From positions 1 through 58,677 of the forward strand of contig JAIYAO010000009.1 of assembly GCA_027488965.1 (NCBI GenBank): a stretch of 58,677 nucleotides of DNA. The letters run 5' to 3'. Made by a program: the position numbers and the translations under genes. This DNA comes from Alphaproteobacteria bacterium. GTDB lineage: Bacteria > Pseudomonadota > Alphaproteobacteria > Caulobacterales > Aquidulcibacteraceae. The notes below the pieces were generated by a model. The model saw nothing but the letters and a program-made list of their open reading frames with translations, was not told the DNA's origin and did no database searches. Positions 5,491 through 21,105 of this stretch are shown piece by piece. How positions within the stretch are numbered: the stretch's first letter is position 1; the number at the start of each line of letters is the position of its first letter.

Positions 5491-7278
5491 CTACGTGACG
5501 TCCATGCCGTCCAGCGCGCCTGCGGCGCGCCACGCCTCCAGCACCTTCACGAAGGCGATGGGCCCTGCGCCGTAGGGCCCGTCCTGCTCGCTGCGCTCGG
5601 CGGGCTTGCCCTCGTTGTTGTAGTACCCCGGCGTGCATTCCTCGAGGAACTTGCGGCGCAGCACGGCGAGGGACTTGATCGTCTCCACCCATTGCGCCTC
5701 GCCCGCCGCGGACGGCTCCACGGTGCGGGCCTGCCTGTCCACGCAATGGCGCACGATCCAGGCCACGTGGCGGGCCTGCTCGTTCAGCATGTGGGGGAAG
5801 TTCACCGCAAAGCCCGACTGCGCATTCTGGAAAATGAAACAGTTGGGGAATCCGCGCGTGGTCAGACCGTGCAGCGTGCGCATGCCGCCTTTCCATTTTT
5901 CGGTTAGCGACTGGCCGTCGCGGCCGTAAAGCTCATAGCCAGAGCGCCGCGTGTACTCGGTGCCCACTTCGAAGCCCGTGGCGTAGATCAGGCAGTCCAG
6001 CGCGTACTCCTTGCCGTCCACCACCACGCCCCGCGGCGTGATCGCGTCGACGCCGCGCCCGCCGGTGTCCACCAGCGACACGTTCGCCCGGTTGAACGTG
6101 GCGAGATACTCGTCATGGAAGCAGGGGCGCTTGCAGAATTGCCGGTAGTACGGCTTGAGCGCCTCGGCCGTCCGCGGATCGGCCACGACGGCGTCCACGC
6201 GAGCGCGGATTTGCTCCATCTTCCGGAAGTCCGCCAGTTCGGCCATCTCGGCCATCTGCTCGGGCGTCATGGCGCGCCGGTCGGCGTTGGCCATGATCAG
6301 CAGATTGCGGATGATGTCGGTCCACCCGTCGGCGACGAGGTCCTCCTTCTGGAAGCCGCCGGAGACGAGCACGTTGAAATTGTCCATGCGCGCCTGCTGC
6401 CAGCCAGGCTGCAGCGACTGCGCCCACGCGGGGTCGGTGGGCCGGTTGTTGCGCACGTCGATGGAGGAGGGCGTGCGCTGGAAGACGTAGAGGCGCCTGG
6501 CGCTTGCGCCGAGATGGGGCACGCACTGCACGGCCGTGGCGCCGGTGCCGATGATGCCCACGACCTTGTCGGCCAGCCCGTCGAGGCCGCCGTCCGATGA
6601 GCCGCCGGTGTAGTCGTAGTCCCAGCGGCTGGTGTGGAAGGAGTGGCCCGCAAAGCTCTCCACGCCCGGGATGCCCGGCAGCTTGGGCCGGTGCAGCGGG
6701 CCATTGGCCATGCAGACGAAGCGCGCGCGCATGGCGTCGCCGCGGTTGGTGAACACCGTCCAGCGCGCGGCGGCTTCGTCCCAGCGCAACTCGGTGACTT
6801 CGGTCTGGAAGCAGGCGTTGTCGTAGAGGCCGAAGTATTCGCCGATGGCGCGGCTGTGGGCGAGAATTTCCGGCGCGCGGGAGTACTTCTCCTTCGGGAC
6901 GTACCCGATCTCTTCCAGTAGCGGCAGGTAGATGTAGCTCTCCACATCGCATGCGGCGCCCGGATAGCGGTTCCAGTACCAGGTCCCGCCGAAGTCCCCG
7001 CCCTTCTCGATGACGCGCACATCCGTGACGCCCGCCTCCTTGAGCCGCGCCGCGGCCAGCAGGCCGCCGAAACCGCCGCCGATCACCACCCCCTCGACGT
7101 CGTCGGTCAGCGGCGCGCGGGCGAAGCCCGGGGGCACGTAGGGGTCCTCAAGATAGCGGGCGAAATCGCCGGCGAGATTGCGGTACTGGGCGTTGCCGTC
7201 GGCGCGCAGGCGCCGGTCGCGCTCGGCGCGGTACTTCTCGCGCAGGGTTTCTGGGTCGAAGTCGAGGTCGGTCGTCAT
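5491..7278 (-). CDS. Flavin-containing Baeyer-Villiger-type monooxygenase
   Basis: FAD- and NADPH-dependent oxygenase that probably inserts oxygen into a ketone to give an ester or lactone. The FAD Rossmann motif GGGFGG is at residues 67-72, the Baeyer-Villiger fingerprint FxGxxxHxxxW is [11 protein letters not shown] at 210-220, and the NADPH Rossmann motif IGTGATA is at 244-250. The fingerprint ends in W-D, as in cyclohexanone-monooxygenase-type enzymes. At 595 aa with an N-terminal extension of about 60 residues it resembles the larger bacterial members. It is divergent from msrA across a 117-bp gap containing a short AT-rich spot (GAGTATATACAC) that could be part of a promoter. No steroid, cyclic-ketone or ester-hydrolase pathway genes adjoin it. 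Confidence 0.9.
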
Positions 7279-7395
7279 GTGTCCTGCCCTTCACGCCGTA
7301 ACCCGCGTGTTGGGTGTGGAGTATATACACGCCGGCCTGCGGCGCACCGGCGCCGTGGCGGAAACCGGACGTCTCCGGCTGTCGTATGGGAAGTC

Positions 7396-8013
7396 ATGAA
7401 ACGGATTATCGCGCTCCTCGCCCTCCTGGTCGCCGCCTGCGGCGCCCAGCCCGCCCAGTCCCAGCCCGCCGCCAAGGCCGCTCAGCCCGTGGGCGCAGTG
7501 CAGGAAGCTGTGTTCGCCGGCGGCTGCTTCTGGTGCGTGGAGCACGATTTCAAGGCCGTGCCCGGCGTCATCGACGTGCTCTCCGGCTACACGGGCGGTC
7601 ACCTCGCCAATCCCACCTACCAGGACGTGATCACCGAAACGACGGGCCACTTCGAGGCCGTGCGTGTGCGGTTCGATTCGGGACGCATCAGCTATCGCCA
7701 GCTGGTGGATCGCTACTGGCGGCTGATCGATCCCACCGACGACGGCGGCCAGTTCTGCGATCGCGGTCCGAGTTACCGTTCCGCCATTTTCGTAACCCCC
7801 GCCCAGCGCGCCGATGCGGAGGCCAGCAAGGCGGCGCTCGCGGCGTCCAATCGCCTGACGGCGCCGGTGGTCACCGAGGTCCTGCCCCTCGCCACGTTTT
7901 ACCCGGCGGAGGAATACCACCGCGACTACGCGAAGAAGAACGCGCTCCGCTACAACACGTACCGCGCGGGCTGCGGCCGCGATGCGCGCCTGCGGGCGGT
8001 GTGGAAGAGCTGA
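7396..8013 (+). CDS. msrA: Peptide-methionine (S)-S-oxide reductase MsrA, lipoprotein form
   Basis: Reduces methionine-S-sulfoxide in oxidised proteins. The catalytic motif GCFWC is present with nucleophile C44; further family blocks include SGYTGG, HFEAVRV and YHRDY. The start at 7396 gives a leader with lipobox LVAAC (C15), so this copy is probably exported and membrane-anchored and would repair envelope proteins; most MsrA are cytosolic. At 205 aa, minus a 30-residue leader and spacer, the core matches the usual length. The longer frame from 7279 would hide the leader. The next gene, MltA, is also an envelope lipoprotein 81 bases downstream on the same strand. Confidence 0.95.
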   Translation: MKRIIALLALLVAACGAQPAQSQPAAKAAQPVGAVQEAVFAGGCFWCVEHDFKAVPGVIDVLSGYTGGHLANPTYQDVITETTGHFEAVRVRFDSGRISYRQLVDRYWRLIDPTDDGGQFCDRGPSYRSAIFVTPAQRADAEASKAALAASNRLTAPVVTEVLPLATFYPAEEYHRDYAKKNALRYNTYRAGCGRDARLRAVWKS

Positions 8014-15301: not shown

Positions 15302-16717
15302 ATGACGTTCCTTACCGAAATGCGAACAGAACCGGCAGGCGCGACCTCGTCCGCCGGCGTGGATGCGCTCGCGATCCATGCCCAGTCCGAGCGCGAGGAC
15401 GCGGGGCGGGCGCTGATGCGACTGCCGGTCACGGTGGTCGTCTCCGGTTTCCTGTTTGCGTTGGTCGGGACGCTGGAGGGCGTCGTCTGGCTGGCCGTGG
15501 TGCTGACGCTGGAGGGCGTCAGCTTCTGGACTCGTGGCCAGACAGTGCTCGCTCCCGCCACGGCCCGCGCGGTGCAGCTTGCGGCCACGGGCGGGGTGTC
15601 GGTGTGCTGGGTGGCGCATGCTTTGCTGCTGTGGCGCACGGGCAACGAGATCGCGCACATCGCGGCGATCATGGATCTCTTCTCCGTTGCGCTCTACGGG
15701 GCCATCGGCGCCCAGAAGGATCGACAGCTCCTGCCGATCCTGCTCGGCCCGCCGCTGCTTACGCTGTCGGTGCTGCTGATCGGGTTTTCGTGGCAGCATG
15801 CGCCCTGGCCGACGGCGACGATCGCCACGCTGGGGGCCATCGGGGCGTGCGTCACCATCGTGCTCAACGCGCTGGCCCTGCATCGGTCCGATCGCGCGCT
15901 TGTCACGGCGAATGCCGCGCTCGACGCCGAACGCCGCGCCCTCGACGCCCGCGTGCGCGCCCGCACCGCGGAGCTGTCGCAGGCGACAGAGGCGGCGCAG
16001 GCCGCCAGCCGCGCCAAGTCCGCATTCGTCGCCACCATGAGCCACGAACTGCGCACGCCGCTGAACGCCGTGATCGGCTACGCTGAGCTGCTGGAAGAAG
16101 ACCTCCGCTCAAACACCGCAAACGCGCGCCCCGACGATGCCGCACGCATCGCCCGCGCCGCGCGTGAACAGCTGGCGATGATCAACGATGTCCTGGATCT
16201 GTCGAAGATCGACGCCGGGCAGATCTCGATCCATCCGGCCGACACAGACCTGCGCGCACTGCTCGACAGCGTCGTCGCTGCGATCGCGCCGCTGGCCCAG
16301 GCCAACGGCAACACAGTGACGCTCGACGTCGACGACGAGGTAAGCCGGCTGGTGACCGACGCTGCGCGGCTGCGCCAGTGCCTTGTCCATATCGCCGGAA
16401 ATGCCGCCAAGTTCACCGCGGCCGGCGAGGTCCGCATCATTGCGCGCCTGTCCGGCGCCAAACGGGAACGCCGGCTCGAGATACGCGTGTCGGACACCGG
16501 TTGCGGGATATCGCCCGCGCAGCAGTCAAGCCTCTTTGAACCCTTCGTGCAGGGCGATTCCAGCGCCGGGCGGGCGTTCGGCGGGGCAGGGCTGGGTCTT
16601 GCCATCACACGCCGTCTTGTCACGCTGCTGGGCGGGGGCGTGGCGCTGGAGAGCAGCAGTGCGTCGGGATCGACGTTCCTGCTGCAGTTGCCGTTGATCT
16701 ATCCCGCGGCGCGATAG
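15302..16717 (+). CDS. Membrane-anchored sensor histidine kinase
   Basis: Six or so hydrophobic segments in residues 40-200 (from LPVTVVVSGFLFALVG to TIATLGAIGACVTIVLNAL) form a membrane sensor; a short coiled coil follows, then HisKA with H248 in [11 protein letters not shown] and an HATPase domain with DTGCGIS and GGAGLGLAI. There is no receiver domain and no response regulator nearby, so the partner is elsewhere. The HisKA segment is nearly identical in pattern to that of the hybrid kinase at 1-2127 (both have [20 protein letters not shown], and ILDLSKI or VLDLSKI), pointing to a paralogous family. The start at 15302 is preferred to an ORF extension that overlaps the upstream gene. 471 aa. 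Confidence 0.9.
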   Translation: MTFLTEMRTEPAGATSSAGVDALAIHAQSEREDAGRALMRLPVTVVVSGFLFALVGTLEGVVWLAVVLTLEGVSFWTRGQTVLAPATARAVQLAATGGVSVCWVAHALLLWRTGNEIAHIAAIMDLFSVALYGAIGAQKDRQLLPILLGPPLLTLSVLLIGFSWQHAPWPTATIATLGAIGACVTIVLNALALHRSDRALVTANAALDAERRALDARVRARTAELSQATEAAQAASRAKSAFVATMSHELRTPLNAVIGYAELLEEDLRSNTANARPDDAARIARAAREQLAMINDVLDLSKIDAGQISIHPADTDLRALLDSVVAAIAPLAQANGNTVTLDVDDEVSRLVTDAARLRQCLVHIAGNAAKFTAAGEVRIIARLSGAKRERRLEIRVSDTGCGISPAQQSSLFEPFVQGDSSAGRAFGGAGLGLAITRRLVTLLGGGVALESSSASGSTFLLQLPLIYPAAR

Positions 16718-17250
16718 TCCGCCCCGAAGGCGCGGAACGGCTGGGGCACGTTGAGGGCGGCCGCGCCCGGCACAGCCGGAGGCGGTGTCGCCCTGGCCTG
16801 CTGGCGCGACAGGATTGGGGTGTGGGACTTGTAGATGTCCTGCTCGATCTCCGCCCGGCGGCGCGGATCTGGGATCGCCATCAGGTGGATCTCGGCGGCG
16901 CCAAGCGCCTGTGCTGCGCCCCACACGTCATGGCGGGCAAGGCTTTCCGCAAAGCTTGCCGTCTGGGCGATGTACAGGCTGATGGGCCCTCCGGCCTCCA
17001 TCGTCGGATAGTCGCCCGGCTTCACGAACATGTAGACGCCGCCCACCGGCTCCCATGCCCGCTTCGAGCGCGCCACGTCGAACTCGTACCAGCGGCCGCT
17101 TGCGCCTTGCCAGGAAAAGATCACGCGCCCGTCTCCGAATTGCCCCGGCCGCCAAGGGCCGCTCCACCGGTCAAAAGTACGGTGAGTCGTGGGAGAGACC
17201 AGAGGCGTGGGTTTCGGTCCGGTGAACAGCGCGTGGAACGCGATGACCAA
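16699..17250 (-). CDS. Degenerate GIY-YIG-like domain protein
   Basis: Not a named gene. Reading from the middle: a strand-rich stretch SWQGASGRWYEFDV, then GGVYMF (the 'GIY' strand), ISLYIAQTASF (the 'YIG' strand with Ala for Gly), ESLARHD with Arg-His, an alternating GAAEIHLM strand, and RRAEIEQDIYKSHTP where the Glu matches the metal-binding Glu of GIY-YIG nucleases. The terminal Asn usually seen is replaced by Ser or Gln. The order and spacing match small GIY-YIG-like proteins of unknown role common in Proteobacteria; activity is doubtful. The C-terminal 35 residues are Ala/Pro-rich. The start is uncertain: TTG at 17250 lacks a Shine-Dalgarno. Its end overlaps the 3' end of the convergent kinase gene by 19 bases. 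Confidence 0.6.
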   Translation of the reverse strand: MVIAFHALFTGPKPTPLVSPTTHRTFDRWSGPWRPGQFGDGRVIFSWQGASGRWYEFDVARSKRAWEPVGGVYMFVKPGDYPTMEAGGPISLYIAQTASFAESLARHDVWGAAQALGAAEIHLMAIPDPRRRAEIEQDIYKSHTPILSRQQARATPPPAVPGAAALNVPQPFRAFGADYRAAG

Positions 17251-17606: not shown

Positions 17607-18398
17607 TCAGCGATCCCAGGCGATGCGCGCGGCGCCCGTTTCATCGAAGTAGGGCCCCCAGAACGATTGTCTTGCCGCCTCCTGCACTGCACCGCGGTCG
17701 CGGCGCTCCAGCACGACGACGCGGACGTCAACGTCAGACAGATCGGGCGCGGTGCGCAGCGCGCCGGCCGCGGTCCGGTAAGAGTCCCACGACTGTCCGG
17801 GCGCGTAGAGCGTAAAGCGCCCGGGCGTGTGCTGGAGGAGATCGCTCACGACGACGAGGCGTCGCCCCGCGCCCGTGAACGCGGGATCGGCGGCAGCGGC
17901 GGCCAGGCCCTCCACGATGGGGGAGCCGTCAGCGCCGCGCGCGCCCTTCGCCGCCGACAACGCCGCCTCCAGCGGTTCGTCGAAGCGGTCCGCCTTGAGC
18001 CTCTCAAGCTTCGCCACGTTCTCCCAGAGCGGGTTGGCGGACAGGCGGTCGCCTGCGGTGCATGCAGAGAACAGTTCTCGGGGCGCCTGGTCGGCGTCGG
18101 GCCGCAGGGTCAGCACCGTCAGCCGGCCCCAGCGCGGCAGGCGCGCCGCTTCATCCAGGGCAACGGCCTTCAGGCGCCGCTGGTGGCGCACGTCGAGCCG
18201 GTCGGTGGCGTCCACGAGAAGAAGCGTGTGGGCCGGCGCAGCGCGGTCCCTCAGGCACAGGGTTTCGGCGTCGAATGCGGGCGTGCCGAGCATCGCGGCG
18301 GCGGCCCCCACGCCGCCAAGGACCAGCACTGTGGCGAAGATCAGCGCAAGGCCGAGGAGGTCCTGCCGCCGCCGTCGCGCCGCACGCCGCCCCTTCAC
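17607..18398 (-). CDS. VWA-like membrane-anchored protein of unknown function
   Basis: A positively charged N-terminus (residues 1-12) and one hydrophobic helix (about 13-37) precede a domain with the look of a von Willebrand A fold: TLLLVDATDRLD (residues 58-69; a degenerate MIDAS with D63 and T65), a long central helix, RRLVVVSDLLQHT and DVRVVVLERRD. It starts at GTG 18398, overlapping the upstream membrane-protein stop by 4 bases (GTGA), so the two are almost certainly made together. The 'VSDLLQ' strand is the most distinctive part. 263 aa; not recognised as a named gene. Topology suggests the domain is periplasmic, but the charges before the helix could also hold it inside. Confidence 0.65.
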   Translation of the reverse strand: MKGRRAARRRRQDLLGLALIFATVLVLGGVGAAAAMLGTPAFDAETLCLRDRAAPAHTLLLVDATDRLDVRHQRRLKAVALDEAARLPRWGRLTVLTLRPDADQAPRELFSACTAGDRLSANPLWENVAKLERLKADRFDEPLEAALSAAKGARGADGSPIVEGLAAAAADPAFTGAGRRLVVVSDLLQHTPGRFTLYAPGQSWDSYRTAAGALRTAPDLSDVDVRVVVLERRDRGAVQEAARQSFWGPYFDETGAARIAWDR

Positions 18399-19720
18399 GG
18401 GCGCCCGCCTTCCAGCCGTTCGGCGGCGTCCTGCAACGCGCGGATCAGCTCCCCGATCTCGCGGTTCGCAGCGGCCTGCGCCGCAGAAAAGGCGGCCTTC
18501 GCCTCCTCCAGCAGTGCGCCTGCGGGCGCAAGCACATCGGGCGGCGGTGCGGGCGGTGAGGGCGGCGTGAGGAAGGCGCGGGGCGGCGCGCCCGCGCGAT
18601 GGGCGGCGTTCTCCTGGCGGTAGAGGGCGACAAGCGCGAGATGCGTGGCCGCCAGCGCCCGAAGCTTCGCATCAATATCGACGATGCGGGCGGCGGCCGT
18701 GTCGTAGTCGGCCAGCATGCGCGCCACCGCGGCCTGACGATCGTCCACGCGCGCGTTGATCTTCTCGATGACGGGATCGACCACGGCATGCATCTCGTCG
18801 GCGACCTCGTCCATCGCGTCGCGGAACTCGGCCTCGGCGTCCTGTGCGTGCCGCTCGAACTTGCCGTAGCCGGGATAAGCCTCGCCGAACTTGGTGGCCC
18901 CCTCATAGAGCGCCATCAGGAACACGATTCCGCCCAGCATGATGAGCGTGATCGATGGCCCGGTGGCGAGCAGGCCTGCCCACGAGGTGGCGTCCGCGGA
19001 GTCCGGGGCGATCTCGGACTCGGCGCGCCACCACGCCATGAACAGGTTGAACCCGGCGGCGACGGCGATGGCGAGCGCGGTGGCGCCATAGCCCATGGCC
19101 TTCGCCACCGGGCGCGCGTGGGTGGTGTAGCGGACGCCGAAGAAGCCGCCGAGAAAGCCCAGAACGGCATTGAGCGCGCTCATGACGATGGCCGTCACGT
19201 ACCCGTTGACCAGCCCTGTTTCGTTCACCGATGCAAAGATCGGCGCGCTGGCGATGGCCTCCACCGCCATGAGCGCCACCAGCAGGCCCGTGGAGAGGAT
19301 GGAGGACTCCGGCAGCTTTGCGCCGAACACGCGCTCTTCGATGCGCCGGAACGTTTCCACGTCCGCGCGCTCGGCGGCGGCGCGGGCGCGCAGCGCCGCA
19401 AGCTCGCTGCGCCGGCGCGTCTCGATCTGCGCCAGCGGCAGGCGCGACTGACCGGTCAGCAACGCGAAGTCCGCCGCGGGCGGCGCATACCGGCGCAGCA
19501 GGGTTTCCAGCCGCTGCGCAACACCAATGCGCTCGGCGAGCAGCGGCGCGCACTCGGCATCGACGGCGGCCTGGATTTCGGCTTCGGCGTCGGCAGCGAG
19601 ATCGTCGTCGCCCGGCCGTCCGGCGGCGGCGTCTGCGCGCGCCCGGCGCTTCACGCCAAGGCGGCGCTCCAGCGATGCAGCGAGCGCAGTCGTGCTTGCG
19701 GTTGGCGCCAGCGCCGCCAT
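18395..19720 (-). CDS. Four-helix membrane protein with flanking coiled coils and PGYG motif, unknown function
   Basis: 441 aa, not recognised as a named family. Residues 1-135 are charged and helical, likely coiled coil (heptad-like runs around 95-130). Four hydrophobic helices lie at about 141-164, 172-197, 208-231 and 253-275. Just after the last is AYPGYGKFER (PGYG at 283-286), a motif I associate with a set of unnamed island-borne membrane proteins. Residues 290-380 are again coiled coil, followed by a Pro-rich linker and an amphipathic C-terminus. The start at 19720 has GGGAG 7 bases upstream. It is translationally coupled to the VWA-like gene. The shape (membrane hub with two long cytoplasmic arms) suggests a scaffold, channel or sensor. 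Confidence 0.65.
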   Translation of the reverse strand: MAALAPTASTTALAASLERRLGVKRRARADAAAGRPGDDDLAADAEAEIQAAVDAECAPLLAERIGVAQRLETLLRRYAPPAADFALLTGQSRLPLAQIETRRRSELAALRARAAAERADVETFRRIEERVFGAKLPESSILSTGLLVALMAVEAIASAPIFASVNETGLVNGYVTAIVMSALNAVLGFLGGFFGVRYTTHARPVAKAMGYGATALAIAVAAGFNLFMAWWRAESEIAPDSADATSWAGLLATGPSITLIMLGGIVFLMALYEGATKFGEAYPGYGKFERHAQDAEAEFRDAMDEVADEMHAVVDPVIEKINARVDDRQAAVARMLADYDTAAARIVDIDAKLRALAATHLALVALYRQENAAHRAGAPPRAFLTPPSPPAPPPDVLAPAGALLEEAKAAFSAAQAAANREIGELIRALQDAAERLEGGRP

Positions 19721-20628: not shown

Positions 20629-21105
20629 TCAGTTGCCGAGCGCGAGGCCGAGGATCACACCGGTGGCGACGCCGACCAGCAGGTATTCGCCGCGGTCGTC
20701 ACGGACCCAGTGTGCGCCGCGGGGCGGAGGCGCCAGGCGGTGGTAGCGATAGTCCACCGGGCGGTAGGCCTCGCGGTAGTAGCCCGGCAGGCGGTCGCCC
20801 CGGCGCCACTGGCGATAGTCGGCGCGGAAATCGCGGCGGCTGTGGTAGGCCTGCGGCGGCGGGCCGTAGTACCAGGTCCTGCCGAGGTAGTACCCGTTGT
20901 GGACGCGGCGATCATAGCGATGGCCGTCGCGATAGCCCTCGCGGTAGGCGCGCCGTTCGTCCCGGCGGTCGTCCCGGTCGTCGTAGTCGCGGTCGTAGCG
21001 ATCGTAACGGTCATAGTGATCGTTGGGGCGGGCCGAGGCTTCGGTCGCCGCCAGCGGCGCGCCGAGCGCGAGCGCTGTCATCGATGCGATCAGAAAGCGT
21101 TTCAT
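20629..21105 (-). CDS. RcnB family secreted protein
   Basis: Exported 158-aa protein with a cleavable signal peptide (MKRFLIASMTALALG to about residue 25, SARP) and a low-complexity region very rich in Asp, Arg and Tyr (about 27-75), then the RcnB core: WRRGDRLPGYYR, YRLAPPPRGAHWVRDD-type segment and the terminal ATGVILGLALG helix. RcnB of E. coli is a periplasmic protein linked to nickel/cobalt homeostasis; most alphaproteobacterial paralogues have no assigned role. No RcnA exporter adjoins it, so a metal function is not asserted. Confidence 0.85.
   Translation of the reverse strand: MKRFLIASMTALALGAPLAATEASARPNDHYDRYDRYDRDYDDRDDRRDERRAYREGYRDGHRYDRRVHNGYYLGRTWYYGPPPQAYHSRRDFRADYRQWRRGDRLPGYYREAYRPVDYRYHRLAPPPRGAHWVRDDRGEYLLVGVATGVILGLALGN

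Follow-up and report, generated by a model that had tools for sequence, protein, structure and literature searches.

A conserved, probably coupled gene pair for a predicted four-helix membrane protein and a VWA-fold protein, with motor-like operon partners in relatives

The window, i.e., the whole 58,677-nucleotide stretch of DNA that was analysed, carries two overlapping genes, here called A and B, whose coordinates are collected in Table 1 together with those of other features discussed below. Their GTGA overlap likely leads to translational coupling, and the same -4 arrangement is seen again in many loci of the A-B family. The first-pass annotation had described this overlap, a product A with four membrane helices, a PGYG motif behind the last of them and long arms, and a single-helix product B with a VWA-like domain bearing the motifs VDATD and VSDLL. 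Hydropathy and AlphaFold agree with this picture of A, and the fold of B was confirmed by structure prediction and comparison.

Table 1. Coordinates of the features in the window and at related loci
Feature	Locus	Coordinates	Strand	Remarks
Gene A	window	18395..19720	minus	441 aa from ATG 19720; predicted inner-membrane protein
Gene B	window	17607..18398	minus	263 aa from GTG; predicted single-TM protein with VWA-fold domain
A stop/B start overlap	window	18395..18398	minus	4 bases, GTGA
Small conserved gene downstream of A-B	window	16702..17130	minus	family size about 110-143 aa
Gene for repeat-rich protein	window	20629-21105	minus	158 aa
Diverged B	L148 (G015)	5998-6738		A gone from the space ahead of B
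Joint deletion in A-B	L186 (G018:C1:2252000-2266000)	about 7223-7885		A start joined to B end
D with C-terminal SNase fusion	L082	8953-10419		
D with C-terminal SNase fusion	L083	2714-4726		
D with C-terminal SNase fusion	L085	3885-5519	minus	
D with C-terminal SNase fusion	L144	7950-9716		
Separate SNase gene by ABCD	L002	11286-11981		
Separate SNase gene by ABCD	L003	10852-11595	minus	
Separate SNase gene by ABCD	L086	10060-10560		
Separate SNase gene by ABCD	L140	7665-8594	minus	
Separate SNase gene by ABCD	L141	3801-4523		
Separate SNase gene by ABCD	L142	8276-9022	minus	

Hydropathy places the transmembrane (TM) helices of A at about 145-163, 178-196, 212-230 and 250-268. The AlphaFold models were built with the window proteins plus relatives from public contigs as input, and that of A is all helical (pLDDT 85.0, pTM 0.61), with long helices flanking the membrane part at 44-78 and 85-135 before it and at 285-374 and 398-437 after it. 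Charge and hydropathy predict an N-in/C-in topology, which would leave the coiled-coil arms in the cytoplasm. The PGYG motif lies just past TM4 and mostly reads DPYPGYG among the relatives, 25 of which share the invariant residues E154 (in TM1), G169 and R232. The model gave no Foldseek match below 1e-3, the sequence found no family at E 1 in NCBIfam, PADLOC or Pfam, and a comparison with phage families (PHROGs) returned weak noise only. The assignment of A as a TolQ/ExbB/MotA protein was rejected, as there is no sequence alignment (hhalign E 0.024 across 11 columns against the stator profile); the structural Z against TolQ/ExbB chains reaches only 7-8, which is background level for helical models.

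Protein B has one TM helix at residues 14-32, LLGLALIFATVLVLGGVGA, and its VWA domain is predicted from charge and hydropathy to face the periplasm. The model (pLDDT 85.4, pTM 0.79) matched TFIIH, BatB and integrin I domains among others in Foldseek (E 9e-5), and the top VIA-align rows were mostly VWA-fold domains with Z of 10.8-12.2, the best one covering 152 residues at 3.2 A, so that the modelled domain clearly resembles a Rossmann-like VWA fold. The earlier description of this domain as degenerate stands in part only: D63 of VDATD, S/T65 (T65 in the window), S159 and D186 of VSDLL are retained in all 25 aligned relatives, and it is the fifth MIDAS position (67) that is lost, which leaves four of the five positions of DxSxS...T...D. 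The MIDAS-like site may bind metal. C48 and C113 are invariant in the same 25 relatives and probably form a disulfide. B resembles the integrin-I, Rpn10 and BatB-type VWA domains in fold and MIDAS topology but differs from them in its two invariant cysteines and in the absence of a sequence match, since no VWA Pfam model or PDB sequence was hit and nothing appeared at E 1 in NCBIfam, PADLOC or Pfam.

Within the order, 83 of 200 genomes encode B, and A lies directly upstream of it on the same strand in 59 of 61 alphaproteobacterial loci (one duplicate included), therefore the A-B pair is a real conserved module and not a product of chance. The adjacency was found both ways, with A matches adjoining B and B matches adjoining A; homologues of A were present in 23 of 61 related genomes. 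The two B loci that have no adjoining A are L148, in which A is missing, and L096, a weak match. At a wider scale, B was found in 18 of 385 genomes of the class and in 18 of 398 genomes of the phylum, the matches outside the class being weak. The homologues are thus mostly not alone, neither protein matches a known housekeeping family, and both families are undescribed in Pfam, NCBIfam and PADLOC, which makes the module new in the libraries searched and upholds the initial proposal of a conserved, probably coupled two-gene envelope module.

In the window's family, the pair occupies one conserved chromosomal place, flanked by an inositol-monophosphatase gene and, on the other side, by a small conserved gene. 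One deletion in the single-contig genome G018 took the bulk of A together with the beginning of B and left the same neighbours intact, which indicates that the pair is dispensable there; the junction is a natural double loss. B is also broken in two draft genomes, which may be an assembly error. The conserved chromosomal position, the lack of a PADLOC match and the loss in a relative speak against the link to genomic islands or defence that had been suggested for the window, and we rejected the window as an island of either kind. There are plasmid-borne relatives, but these have a four-gene version that includes a motor-like pair.

It is uncertain whether the small downstream gene is part of the A-B module. 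It is kept adjoining A-B in the window's family, where a close form occurs in 25 genomes, nearly all with B, and its product has the conserved motifs WQGxSGRWYEF...GGxYMFVKP...LARHDxWxAA, while none was found next to the further A-B and ABCD loci that were inspected. Its product matches no Pfam or PDB family, and a GIY-YIG nuclease, suggested by inspection of the sequence, was dropped for want of backing from either. The small gene is better conserved than A or B and has up to three matches per genome in the window's family. Another gene of the window encodes a protein that has many DRYDRDYDDRDD-type repeats and possibly a signal peptide.

Profiles for all four genes identified 19 ABCD loci (18 distinct), in which C and D come after A-B, on chromosomes and plasmids, the latter in Paracoccus, Rhizobium, Microvirga and Tistrella, and one further ABC(D) locus is cut by a contig end. 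D, whose best PADLOC match is ZorB2 (1.7e-33), also matches the NCBIfam ZorB2 model (1.6e-17) and the solved ZorB-type chain PDB 8vvi (2e-12), and it usually carries an OmpA-type domain; three D proteins of the alignment have this part replaced. Its TM helix starts with LGLTxAExxLLL, and the Glu of TxAE is invariant where MotB and ZorB have an Asp. The ZorB residue is D24 (PMC11890865). C has four TM helices by hydropathy in the clearest case, and its TM3-TM4 region aligns with a TolQ/ExbB/ZorA-like profile over 65 columns (hhalign E 2.7e-4); it matches PADLOC ZorA2 at 1.5e-6, and T79 and T110 are invariant. The match of C to stators is weak in single sequences and full-length searches are partly coiled-coil signal. 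The C core did not align with E. coli TolQ/ExbB alone, so that the richer stator profile was needed, and a search of PDB sequences gave nothing useful. Judged by their sequences, C looks like a ring subunit of the TolQ/ExbB/ZorA type whose coiled-coil tail would be cytoplasmic, and D like a single-TM, axle-type subunit of the MotB/ZorB kind. A and C as paralogues were rejected, the hhalign comparison of their profiles giving nothing.

The AB-only arrangement is frequent in the order, and 39 A-B loci have no adjacent stator genes. No ZorB-like gene adjoins A-B in the window, and the search of its genome (G000; rated 100 percent complete, in 200 contigs) with the C profile returned nothing. A second search for C detected all four positive controls and gave no match in the 23 AB-only genomes that it covered in the order, that of the window among them. 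D elsewhere in G000 was considered and rejected, as two weak matches to the D profile cover the OmpA-type region only. The best reading is that the window holds a motorless A-B form. On the midpoint-rooted B tree, 18 ABCD rows fall into one clade with the ABC row and a single AB row, and the whole tree needs three label changes; the support at the clade base is modest.

We hypothesize, with a probability of roughly 0.5, that A and B make up the scaffold and transducer half of a motor-driven envelope machine that is as yet undescribed and is present in the window in a motorless form. A and B would form an inner-membrane complex in which the metal-binding-type VWA domain of B, tethered in the periplasm by its one helix and braced by the disulfide, binds an envelope partner, and the four helices and cytoplasmic coiled-coil arms of A could pass the state of B across the membrane. 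Many relatives would couple the pair to a proton-driven motor with C as the ring and D as the axle, the OmpA-type domain of D binding peptidoglycan and a staphylococcal-nuclease (SNase) domain being often fused to D or encoded adjacent. The binding of A to B, the binding of metal and the transmission of a signal or force are inferred from the coupling, the fold and the operon partners. The likeliest task of A-B would be envelope surveillance or mechanical tethering. The pair could also be a purely structural tether, in which the VWA domain grips a partner in the periplasm, the peptidoglycan or the outer membrane and A ties it to a scaffold on the cytoplasmic side with no signalling, C and D having been added later in the relatives. 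A VWA fold with a MIDAS-like site fits adhesion or complex assembly, the AB-only form is frequent in the order and has one fixed place in the window's family, and the AB and ABCD forms split almost cleanly on the B tree, yet A, with an invariant Glu in TM1 and long arms in the cytoplasm, exceeds the needs of a simple anchor, and we regard such a passive role as rather unlikely.

The motor could instead be borrowed, i.e., A-B in the window's lineage would use a general motor, TolQR or ExbBD, and still transduce proton-motive force. TM-tethered vWA proteins next to TolQ/TolR-like motors have been published and proposed as force transducers (PMC12204202), and the relatives have motor-like genes of their own adjoining A-B. 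No link to tol or exb genes was seen, however, and the TM helix of B has neither the SHLS motif/His nor, lacking any Asp, the trans-pore Asp which mark the two published vWA families (PMC12204202), so that we give this variant very little credence. B shares with those transducers a single TM helix, a predicted periplasmic VWA domain and, in the relatives, adjoining motor-like genes; it differs in that the four-TM coiled-coil A replaces the TPR protein or second vWA gene and in that motor genes are missing from the form in the window.

The Pfam SNase domain is present in 3 of 11 D proteins, and with a profile built in this analysis SNase was found in 10 of 19 ABCD loci (one duplicate), fused to D in four and encoded nearby in six, on either side and either strand of the operon, compared with 0 of 39 AB-only loci. 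The Fisher p of 1.8e-6 for ABCD against AB is a guide only, the loci not being independent. We tentatively suggest, at somewhat less than even odds, an undescribed proton-driven trans-envelope machine composed of the scaffold A, the transducer B, the ZorA-like C and the ZorB-like D with a periplasmic nuclease, which would handle or destroy DNA at the envelope and whose A-B core could live without the motor. A related proposal is defence against phage or incoming DNA, with the motor sensing envelope damage, as proposed for Zorya (PMC11890865), the nuclease cutting in the periplasm, and the pair of the window being a remnant or reduced version. The closeness of D to ZorB and of C to ZorA, the fused or adjacent SNase, the patchy spread and the carriage on plasmids would suit it. 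However, neither A nor B is recognized by a PADLOC model, the annotated plasmid neighbourhoods show transport, metabolic and hypothetical genes with no evident defence island, and the pair keeps a fixed chromosomal place in the window's family, with no SNase nearby. We therefore judge this account improbable as a whole; a defence role is possible for the ABCD-SNase form and unsupported for the pair of the window.

Proton-driven 5:2 motors, namely TolQR, ExbBD, MotAB and ZorAB, act via different partners. If our main reading is true, A-B-C-D adds to them a motor that works through a VWA transducer and a four-TM scaffold, in many cases together with a nuclease on the peptidoglycan side, and the motorless form is a natural way to tell the role of the A-B core from that of the motor. 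The similarity to the TolQR, ExbBD and MotAB stators lies in TM3-TM4 of C and in the TM helix and OmpA-type domain of D, whereas A is unaligned to the stator profile. C of the relatives is like ZorA in its ring-type TM helices and cytoplasmic coiled-coil tail, D is like ZorB in its single TM helix and OmpA-type domain, and a nuclease is often associated as in Zorya. In contrast to Zorya, the window has neither C nor D, its A and B have no PADLOC match at E 1, the fused SNase lies on the predicted periplasmic side of D and does not correspond to the cytoplasmic ZorE or ZorD, and the D helix carries Glu in place of Asp. Because B is devoid of the marker TM residues and the window of stator genes, membership in the vWA transducers or in Zorya fails; the working principle, an envelope-spanning complex that is motor-coupled in relatives, may still be common to both. 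Our literature search found no other Zorya-like, SNase-OmpA or vWA-motor operon of such make-up besides PMC12204202, and the strongest of the new results is that relatives link A-B with a motor pair of the Zorya/MotAB kind and with a nuclease. Outside the class, weak B-like VWA proteins (L133, L134, L136, L137 and L138) are encoded in operons that also hold genes for a lipoprotein-like protein of the OmpA type and for a membrane protein of 520-550 aa that is unlike A.
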